DNA from: Porticoccaceae bacterium
GTDB lineage: Bacteria; Pseudomonadota; Gammaproteobacteria; Pseudomonadales; Porticoccaceae
Reading direction: 5' to 3'
Length of the DNA: 11,604 bases
NCBI GenBank assembly: GCA_030741175.1
Contig: JASLVT010000021.1
Location: forward strand, 1 to 11,604
Shown: positions 1 through 1,941 of the stretch, piece by piece
Layout of the letters: each line of letters opens with the position of its first letter
Numbering within the stretch: the stretch's first letter is position 1
Program-made: the position numbers and the translations under genes
The notes under the pieces: generated by a model
Told to the model about the DNA's origin: nothing
The model's database searches: none
The model's input: only the letters and a program-made list of their open reading frames with translations

Positions 1-1
1 C

Positions 2-1021
2 CTATTCGAAAAGCTTGAACTTCCGGTGCTGAAGAAAACCGCAAAAGGCGCTCCCTCTACCAAGGAAGAGGTATTGCAGGAGCTGGCCCTTGACTACCCA
101 TTGCCAAAAGTACTGCTAGAACACCGTGGCTTGGCCAAGCTGAAGTCAACTTACACCGACAAGTTGCCAACCATGATAAATCCGTCGACCAAACGGATTC
201 ATACTTCTTATCATCAAGCGGGTACGGCCACGGGCCGACTATCATCCTCGGATCCCAATCTACAGAATATTCCTGTGCGCACCTCTGAGGGTCGTCGTGT
301 ACGTCAAGCATTTATCGCCTCGCAAAATAGCCATATAGTGGCTGCAGACTATTCACAAATTGAATTGCGGATTATGGCGCATCTCTCTGAGGATCCCAGC
401 CTATTGTCAGCATTTGCGGCCGGTGAGGATATTCATCGCGCCACAGCCTCAGAGGTATTTGCAGTAACCAAAGAGCAGGTTACAGCTGATATGCGACGCA
501 ACGCCAAGGCAATTAACTTCGGACTCATTTATGGTATGTCCGCCTTTGGCTTGGCAAGGCAATTAAATATTGGCCGCAAGCAGGCGGCAGAATATATTGA
601 ACTCTATTTTGAGCGTTACCCCGGTGTACAAAACTATATGAATAATATTCGCCACACCGCGGCAGAACAGGGCTATGTGGAAACGGTCTTTGGACGCCGG
701 TTATACCTTCCTGAGATAAATTCACGCAACGGTATGCGTCGCCAGGCCGCTGAGCGAACAGCTATTAATGCGCCCATGCAGGGTACCGCTGCCGATATTA
801 TTAAATTGGCCATGATACAGGTTGATGATTGGTTACAAAGTGCCAAACTGGAAAGCCGTATGATTATGCAAGTACATGACGAACTAGTCCTTGAAGTACC
901 CAGTGCCGAGATGGATATTGTCCAGCAAGGCCTGACCAGCCTGATGGAGAATGCTACTAGCTTATTGGTACCATTAGTGGTTGATGTCGGCGTTGGTGAC
1001 AACTGGGATGAAGCGCATTAA
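2..1021 (+). CDS. polA: DNA polymerase I, C-terminal polymerase domain (5'-truncated by window edge)
   Basis: This is the last 339 codons of DNA polymerase I, which fills gaps and replaces RNA primers during replication and repair. The frame is open from base 2, so the gene begins outside the window; the GTG at 26 is internal (the frame reads [12 protein letters not shown] across it). Family A palm and finger motifs are intact: motif A (DYSQIELR, from base 347), motif B ([14 protein letters not shown], 494-535) with the Phe typical of enzymes that exclude dideoxynucleotides, and motif C (QVHDE, 869-883) carrying the second catalytic Asp. The reading ends with GDNWDEAH and TAA, the usual family terminus. 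The 5' nuclease and 3'-5' exonuclease domains are not visible. The next plus-strand element is the small RNA candidate at about 1135, the same order as polA-spf in E. coli and polA-ersA in Pseudomonas. Confidence 0.98.
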
Positions 1022-1103: not shown

Positions 1104-1131
1104 GGAACTTGTTGTAAAAGCTGTGTCTAAA
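1104..1131 (+). promoter_or_regulatory. Sigma-E/AlgU-like promoter of the small RNA downstream of polA
   Basis: GGAACTT at 1104-1110 followed by TCTAAA at 1126-1131 resembles the extracytoplasmic-stress sigma factor consensus (GAACTT, then TCTGA or TCTAA). The spacer between GAACTT and TCTAA is 15 bases, one shorter than the usual 16, which is the main weakness. Upstream, 1060-1100 is rich in A and T tracts, as often seen before such promoters. No sigma-70 promoter with acceptable spacing is visible here. Pseudomonas ErsA, at the same genomic position, is known to depend on AlgU, which supports the reading; a start near 1135 is inferred. Confidence 0.5.
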
Positions 1132-1134
1132 GAG

Positions 1135-1244
1135 GGGTACAACGAAGTGACATCATATTCTCCCCCGATTAGATGTGTGTATAGTAAGTAATACTCTCCG
1201 AGTAGCAAAGTAACCCCCGATCCAGGTTGGATCGGGGGTTTTTT
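1135..1244 (+). ncRNA. Putative Spot 42/ErsA-like small regulatory RNA
   Basis: The polA-engB gap holds a transcript-like unit of about 110 bases: a promoter-like sequence just upstream, no ORF worth reporting, and a strong intrinsic terminator. The 5' end contains GGGTACA (1135-1141), which matches the remembered start of E. coli Spot 42. A C-rich stretch TCTCCCCCGATT (1159-1170) could pair with purine-rich ribosome binding sites. A short hairpin TACTC-TCC-GAGTA (1192-1204) lies before the terminator stem (1212-1240). Spot 42 is 109 nt and also lies between polA and yihA/engB; Pseudomonas ErsA holds the same place. Position, size, layout and terminator are seen directly or follow from the sequence. 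Homology and regulatory function are inferred, and the exact 5' end is a guess. Confidence 0.62.
1212..1244 (+). terminator. Intrinsic terminator of the small RNA
   Basis: A perfect 12-bp stem, AACCCCCGATCC (1212-1223) with GGATCGGGGGTT (1229-1240), closes a 5-base loop and runs into a T tract (1239-1244). The minus strand lacks a T tract after the hairpin, so it should stop plus-strand transcripts only, not engB transcripts. Confidence 0.93.
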
Positions 1245-1311: not shown

Positions 1312-1941
1312 TTAGGTATCTGCTAGATCAGCATTCAACCAATGATTGAGCTGTTGCTCTAATGCTGACAAACCCTGCTTTTTAAGTGCAGAAAATGTTT
1401 GCACAGATAATAGGGTGCAACCTGGATCCATATCCCTTAATAGTGTTTCAACCCTTAATCTTGCATTTTCCGCTGGTCCTCTTTTGATTTTGTCGGCTTT
1501 GGTCAACAAGATATGAACAGGTAAACTCGCTTGAGCAGCCCAGTTGAGCATTTGTTGGTCGTAGTCCTGCAAAGGGTGACGAATATCCATCAGCAAGATA
1601 AGACCAGCCAAGCTCTCTCGCATCTGTAGATAATTCGCCAAGTGTCGATCCCACTCTGCTTTCATGGCCCTCGGCACCTTGGCATAACCATATCCAGGTA
1701 GATCAACCAGACGTTTGTTTTCAGTTAATTGAAAGAAATTAATAAGCTGAGTACGCCCCGGTGTTTTACTAGTGCGAGCTAGCCCTCTTTTTCGGGTAAG
1801 GGCATTGATGGCGCTCGATTTGCCCGCATTTGAGCGTCCAGCGAACGCAACTTCACTGCCGGTGTCGACAGGACACTCCTTAATGGTTGGAGCGCTAGTC
1901 AAAAATTCAGCGATCTGATAGTTGATTGCAAATGAATCCAT
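1312..1941 (-). CDS. engB: Ribosome biogenesis GTP-binding protein EngB/YihA/YsxC
   Basis: A 209-residue TRAFAC-class GTPase of the EngB (YihA/YsxC) family, known to be needed for assembly of the 50S ribosomal subunit. GTPase motifs are in order: G1 GRSNAGKS (35-42), G2 region with Thr in TPGRTQ (60-65), G3 DLPG (80-83) within the family-typical [11 protein letters not shown]4 TKAD (147-150), and G5 around SALKK (184-188). Length is normal and the protein is cytoplasmic. The ATG at 1939-1941 is the first usable start after an in-frame stop, but no clear Shine-Dalgarno sequence precedes it. It is divergent from the cytochrome c4 gene across about 137 bases and converges on the small RNA. Bases 1262-1305, just after its stop, contain two copies of GTCAGGYAGT and a weak hairpin without a T tract, so no clear terminator is seen. 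Confidence 0.97.

Follow-up and report, generated by a model that had tools for sequence, protein, structure and literature searches.

A candidate C-rich small RNA under a sigma-E-type promoter in the polA-yihA interval of Porticoccaceae

A conserved unit behind polA

The interval between polA and the GTPase gene yihA/engB in the window (the whole stretch of 11,604 nucleotides analysed here) holds a unit which, judged by its sequence, is a conserved gene and very probably yields a free transcript. The best reading of this unit, with a probability of roughly 0.6, is that it encodes a C-rich, sigma-E-dependent sRNA repressing an outer-membrane receptor. In the mechanism that we propose, the free-standing gene would produce a regulatory RNA of roughly 110 nt, ended by its own terminator and transcribed by sigma-E (RpoE/AlgU) under envelope stress. 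Two runs rich in C would be exposed on this RNA, CUCUCC and, at or close to an apical loop, UCUCCCCC. The latter would pair in the cell with the G-rich ribosome-binding site (RBS) GGGGGAGA of a TonB-dependent receptor mRNA, the predicted pairing reaching the start codon in several genomes. The ensuing block of translation would lower the outer-membrane protein load under envelope stress. Hfq, encoded in the window genome (102.9 bits), probably assists. If true, this would add to the envelope-stress response a non-coding branch that lacks annotation and has a target open to experiment, in a lineage known here mostly from metagenome assemblies. No earlier description of the sRNA was found among the titles and abstract beginnings searched; its kind is already known. 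The features considered below are the following.

1..1021, + strand: 3' part of polA (DNA polymerase I), entering from the window edge; ORF 26-1021, stop codon 1019-1021
1104..1110, + strand: -35 box GGAACTT of a sigma-E-type promoter, read from the sequence; GAACT in 32/32 aligned genus copies
1126..1131, + strand: -10 box TCTAAA (GTCTAA in context), read from the sequence, after a 15-base spacer
1135..1244, + strand: putative sRNA gene, about 110 nt, from models R1/R2 and fold; 5' end placed by its spacing from the promoter boxes
1150..1176, + strand: hairpin 1 of the constrained fold, ACATC 1150-1154 with GATGT 1172-1176 around the C-rich stretch
1159..1167, + strand: C-rich motif UCUCCCCC(G), predicted pairing seed, from conservation and the duplex with the TonB receptor RBS
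1194..1199, + strand: second C-rich motif CUCUCC, then GAGUAGCAAA; CC 1198-1199 invariant in 29 copies
1212..1244, + strand: intrinsic terminator, stem 1212-1224/1228-1240, loop 1225-1227, T tail
1312..1941, - strand: yihA/engB GTPase gene, an ORF convergent to polA

We take 1..1021 to be polA by its protein sequence, and its reading frame is the one matched by the 80 named polA loci that were kept; 1312..1941 is presumably yihA/engB, a name taken from the sequence-only reading and a protein motif. These coordinates bear out the location between the two genes proposed in that reading. The window genome (G000) consists of 305 contigs, 1.6 Mb in all, and is 73% complete; Porticoccaceae are probably a marine family.

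Distribution, tandem units and dispersed copies

A DNA search of 56 genomes returned, own genome aside, nine genus relatives at E ≤ 1e-5 (best 1.6e-20), whereas the rest of the rows, listed to E = 1, are for the most part probably chance matches. Of the 112 family genomes 108 have a polA that could be placed, and for 90 of these 108 its downstream sequence was available. Across 29 aligned genus copies 24 positions are invariant. Comparison of the polA-engB gaps of relatives, proposed earlier as a check, gave the expected outcome: the promoter boxes, the C-rich stretch and the terminator are all kept. Model R1, built from 11 copies, matches 40 of 44 genus polA loci at E ≤ 5.1e-7, a set which includes the window and the 11 training copies and leaves out L115 and L132, where the contig ends behind polA. 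Two of the loci missed by R1 nevertheless carry the unit: in L145 (G027) a second model, R2, for which 69 copies from the family were used, matches weakly at the right place (E = 7.8e-4), and in L146 (G079) a pair of copies adjoins yihA, behind other sequence. A copy is thus found between polA and yihA in 42/44 genus loci examined; G033 and G077 (L152, L153) have none in this interval by either model, though yihA is visible.

At E ≤ 0.01, R2 matches 94 of the 112 family genomes, representing 12 of 14 genera, with many of the matches being its own training copies. Its 28 matches in a 293-genome sample of the order comprise 12 in the family and 16 outside, the latter weak (best E = 1.8e-6). Over the 80 named polA loci R1 gave three matches at E < 1e-4 (L032, L033, L050), only the last of which is independent of the model, because two of its training copies come from the genomes of L032 and L033. 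In L125, L135-L137, L141, L150 and L252 polA and the sRNA are separated by other sequence, apparently a gene; the sRNA is nevertheless followed by yihA in all of these but L125, where yihA is out of view. As a separate observation, locus L088 is labelled Nitrospira, yet its polA stretch is 69% identical to the gammaproteobacterial one of the window, so that its label or binning looks doubtful.

Tandem units occur behind polA at 11 loci of genus g31 (L158-L164, L166, L167, L169, L170), two or three at each; L159 and L162 are the loci with three, and L166 has one good and one weak unit (E = 0.11 for the latter). Each has its own terminator and GAACT-type boxes, in the form GAAACT in two. R2 also finds units at loci other than polA in many genus genomes. 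Twenty such stretches, fetched because R2 had matched them, have a best match of E ≤ 1.4e-5 each, with GAACT, the C-rich run and the terminator visible; they come from genus g1 (L234-L246, L248-L251, L253) and from g31 (L247), the remaining one, L252, being the polA-yihA interval of G079. In L234 and L237-L240 the unit lies behind what we take, by its sequence, to be an aldehyde-dehydrogenase-like gene, and in L242, L243 and L253 near a presumably AraC-like gene. In the window genome one unit was found, the assembly being incomplete.

These copies bear on the view that the unit is just the terminator region of polA, with any RNA from it produced by read-through. Terminators behind genes are indeed ordinary. 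However, the promoter boxes and two internal motifs are conserved as well, promoter, C-rich run and terminator are retained where a gene intervenes between polA and the copy or where the copy sits at another locus, and tandem copies carry promoter-like boxes of their own. We therefore reject this view as highly improbable.

The promoter and its likeness to that of rpoE

The sequence-only reading had described the promoter as sigma-E-type, GGAACTT-15-TCTAAA, and both the boxes with their 15-base spacer and the type hold up: the arrangement is kept in relatives, and rpoE is present with similar boxes upstream. In 32 genus copies the -10 element reads GTC followed by TAA, TTA, TGA, CAA or AAA, with identical spacing. 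A scan of the + strand of the 351-base stretch for sigma-70 promoters found none. RpoE is encoded in the window genome (TIGR02939, 307.8 bits) and in 49/50 genus genomes. Of 30 rpoE loci fetched, 22 could be parsed, and all 22 have, within the 330 bases up to the QLVVRVQ codons, GAACTT or GAACTA, 15 nt, and then GTCTGT or something close to it (L208 reads ATCTTT, L210 GTCTTT). Eleven of the 22 belong to clade B, and each of these carries GAACTA ahead of rpoE, the same as in its own sRNA gene; six of the seven genomes of the clade A set (A2) have GAACTT at both places, the seventh (L216) having GAACTA at rpoE only. A shared sigma factor could leave such a trace, and we consider it quite probable that sigma-E drives the sRNA.

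Fold, terminator and reading frames

The terminator had been described as a perfect 12-bp stem; the hairpin is there, at 1212-1240, with 13 pairs by the tool's count (8 of them G-C), a loop of 3 and a run of T's. No other terminator-like site occurs in these 351 bases, and shuffled versions have 0.2 such sites on average; 12 of its 13 pairs show changes on both sides among 69 copies. For the unit of 112 nt the predicted folding energy is -38.4 kcal/mol (z = -3.44; 1/200 shuffles as stable), much of which is that of the terminator.

Upstream of the terminator, UCUC (1159-1162) and CC (1165-1166) of the first C-rich motif are invariant across the 29 genus copies, and many copies of other genera have CCCAAGCAACAGCAAAGC at the second. 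In the family alignment of 69 copies, which was fitted to the structure model and so leans towards its own structure, 92.8% of cells are paired, covariation is 0.463 vs 0.204 in shuffled data, 17 of 18 pairs show changes on both sides, and helix 1 covaries. Alignment-free tests asked whether the hairpin around the C-run is better than with shuffled flanks at p ≤ 0.05. This was so in 17/60 copies with the whole motif kept unpaired and in 15/59 with four C's unpaired, where about three are expected, and in the latter test the C's are enclosed in 57/59 copies against 44.2 expected; the window copy is not significant in either (0.34 and 0.25). Since significance comes from other copies and not from that of the window, we regard an apical C-rich loop as likely for the family and as uncertain here. 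RNAalifold recovered the terminator and nothing else on the mixed alignment A1, and no pair with changes on both sides on alignment A3.

The description of the 110-base unit as lacking an ORF worth reporting is upheld. The longest ORF within the window copy has 14 codons, and although each of the 69 copies allows some short ORF (5-36 codons) through the C-run, none is convincing, because frame and length shift with the length of the C-run and among clades. A tiny leader peptide within the unit is nonetheless conceivable. Four close relatives (L135, L136, L137, L141) share a similar 33-codon ATG reading (MIA.NLPRD...) through C-run and terminator, which beyond its first codons is not kept in other clades.

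Relationship to known sRNAs

The sequence-only reading had called the unit Spot 42/ErsA-like. Position, promoter type and C-rich character agree with this, whereas membership in either family finds no support: cmscan of the window gave no match to RF00021 (Spot 42) or RF01719 (ErsA/Pseudomon-1), at the gathering score or at E ≤ 10. The same library did recognize its controls, namely the Stutzerimonas locus L087 as ErsA (122.8 bits) and two loci, L048 and L111, as Spot 42 (125.6 and 88.2 bits). In the opposite direction R1 had no match to these three loci at E ≤ 1. The Spot 42 model scan proposed as a check thus came out negative with working controls. The window scan at E ≤ 10 returned 11 Rfam matches in all (best E = 0.19), each below the gathering score of its family and several on the terminator, which we take as chance; another 20 loci, among them relatives, copies from other places and receptor genes, gave no Rfam match.

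ErsA of Pseudomonas also sits in the polA-engB interval (PMC8575079), and is described as sigma-22/AlgU-dependent, acting with Hfq and repressing algC and the porin gene oprD (PMC8395346). A further likeness is a C-rich stretch in the Stutzerimonas gap, and the promoter type also recalls ErsA, the Porticoccaceae boxes being conserved and similar to those before rpoE. The differences, beside the lack of a model match either way, are the predicted target and the tandem and dispersed copies in Porticoccaceae. Spot 42 has a place downstream of polA and a comparable length in common with the unit, but the promoter here is of sigma-E type, whereas spf (Spot 42) is repressed by cAMP-CRP according to a title cited in PMC3771888. 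The same article describes sX13 of Xanthomonas, an RNA of 115 nt always downstream of polA, whose apical C-rich loops act on G-rich motifs near translation starts and which is reported there to be confined to Xanthomonadaceae and Hfq-independent (PMC3771888). Compared by this description, sX13 resembles the present unit in polA-downstream position and C-richness; in our case the C-rich motif is conserved, its place in a loop is partly supported and a G-rich target is predicted.

The window genome encodes both Hfq and RpoE, as would suit an Hfq-dependent sigma-E sRNA. MicA and RybB of enterics likewise have a sigma-E promoter and repress outer-membrane protein mRNAs, as proposed here; their loci and seeds are other than those of the Porticoccaceae sRNA, the comparison with them being made through the Rfam scan. 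A literature search over titles and abstract beginnings, with most subscription journals outside it, returned no description of a polA-linked sRNA of Porticoccaceae.

When the gaps behind polA of the 80 named loci were read over up to 450 nt, 21 contained GAACT-N15-18-GTC, while shuffling predicts 1.9; two of the 21 are genomes of the window's genus, the match in L057 lies far downstream, and none is in a locus named after a genus of Enterobacterales. This suggests a wider class of sRNAs. It also fits the idea that the unit is a fast-diverging true orthologue of ErsA, perhaps of Spot 42, a single ancestral polA-locus sRNA having drifted past recognition by the models, all the more as the interval from polA to yihA/engB is shared and the Stutzerimonas gap also has GAACTT...GTC and the C-rich stretch. 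The mutual silence of the models at these loci, and the few weak R2 matches outside the family, speak against it, and we hold such orthology to be possible but doubtful. Other Gammaproteobacteria have polA gaps with GAACT...GTC boxes and C-rich runs (L039, L042-L044, L049, L051, L061, L064, L074, L076, L079, L080, L096), in which R1 has no match at E ≤ 1. A stretch of the Pseudidiomarina polA gap (L103:3096-3177) scores exactly at the gathering score of RF00519 suhB/mmgR (41 bits).

A TonB-dependent receptor mRNA as candidate target

The motif UCUCCCCC is exactly complementary to GGGGGAGA at the RBS of TonB-dependent receptor genes. In the window genome alone there is no clear enrichment of such sites, because GGGGGAG-N1-14-ATG occurs 12 times against 8 for the backwards pattern and the sRNA gene itself, read on its opposite strand, supplies two of the 12. 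Two G-rich sites in this genome stand at starts of long ORFs. One belongs to a TonB-dependent receptor (Plug 62.2 bits, beta-barrel 52.1 bits; site ATCTCGGGGGAGATCTATG), which ranks first for predicted duplex with the sRNA among 46 own genes, a rank that is partly circular because the gene was first noticed through the G-rich pattern. The other, with CGGGGGAG at its RBS and the second-best duplex, is a 399-aa ORF (L261) which we take by its sequence to be CoA-transferase-like.

Relatives of the receptor at E ≤ 1e-80 were found in 38 of 48 genus genomes (42 rows, of which those at about 50% identity may be paralogues). The start codon is preceded by GGGGGAGA in 27 of the 42 and by AGGGGAGAA in 8 more; three receptors (G077, G033, G005) have neither, and the remaining four rows, namely the second rows of G000, G077 and G033 plus G081, are unread or different, that of G000 having ATCTCAGGGAGGAT. 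In the 30 loci that were read the corresponding counts are 19, 8 and 3. Over these 30, identity is 80% in the segment -17..-1 and falls to 49% further upstream, at -40..-21; positions -10..-4 reach 90-97%. The -20..-1 bases of rpoE are also 77% identical (n = 22), and conservation of a G-rich RBS can reflect translation alone.

Across the 48 genus genomes GGGGGAGA-N1-8-ATGA occurs at 71 sites, against 30 for the backwards pattern, and 27 of the 71 are start codons of TonB receptors. Most of the excess sits in the receptor, since removal of these 27 and of seven sites on the other strand of sRNA genes leaves 37 vs 30; part of it may be ordinary, because the backwards control is not Shine-Dalgarno-like. 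The predicted duplex of sRNA and RBS is better than with 300 shuffled sRNAs at p ≤ 0.05 in 19 of 21 genomes, all of them site-bearing, the two others being G072 (0.053) and G073 (0.113). Predicted pairing extends to the start codon in the tested clade A genomes and in the group of G003, G028 and G024, and comes down to the 8-bp core alone in most tested clade B genomes.

G033 and G077, the genomes without a polA-linked sRNA, account for two of the three receptors without a site. This joint absence fits co-loss, and may be one event because the two genomes may be sisters; both keep a related sRNA elsewhere (L238, L239). In G005 the sRNA is present and the receptor site absent.

The same RBS could, however, be G-rich or palindromic for reasons of its own, as a strong Shine-Dalgarno sequence, a cis hairpin or a CsrA/RsmA site, while a real sigma-E sRNA would act mainly on mRNAs other than this one. 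Two groups of receptors differ in their RBS, ATCTC-GGGG-GAGAT as against TTCTC-TAGGG-GAGAA, and the fact that this change is paired suggests a cis hairpin. The G-rich site of the CoA-transferase-like gene also favours this alternative. On the other side, receptor sites make up most of the seed-complementary excess, and site and polA-linked sRNA are jointly absent in G033 and G077. We give this alternative appreciably less weight, without dismissing it, and lean slightly towards repression of the TonB receptor as a main role of the sRNA.

At a more speculative level, the polA-yihA interval might be an ancient source of C-rich sRNAs under sigma-E control among the Gammaproteobacteria outside the enterics. 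A single ancestral gene would have given rise to ErsA and to the Porticoccaceae form, followed by tandem amplification to two to three copies, copying to other loci and, in the genus, a tie to the TonB receptor through a C-loop facing the G-loop of a palindromic RBS hairpin. We regard this scenario as rather unlikely as it stands. The two loops would be AUCUC-CCCC-GAGAU in some sRNAs vs AUCUC-GGGG-GAGAU in receptor mRNAs.

Some further observations concern the G-rich sites themselves. A palindromic RBS element, TATCTCGGGGGAGATTT or TTCTCTAGGGGAGAATT, lies about 17 bases before the start in L308-L321 and L324-L336, and the receptor proteins behind it have diverged to about 50% identity. Other TonB receptors of the window genome have GGGG before the start (L302, L304 and, at a second start, L301). 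Finally, a recurrent sequence, GGGGGAGAAAAATGA, accounts for seven of the 71 pattern sites and, in the four that were read (L343, L350, L355, L366), leads into 5-codon ORFs.
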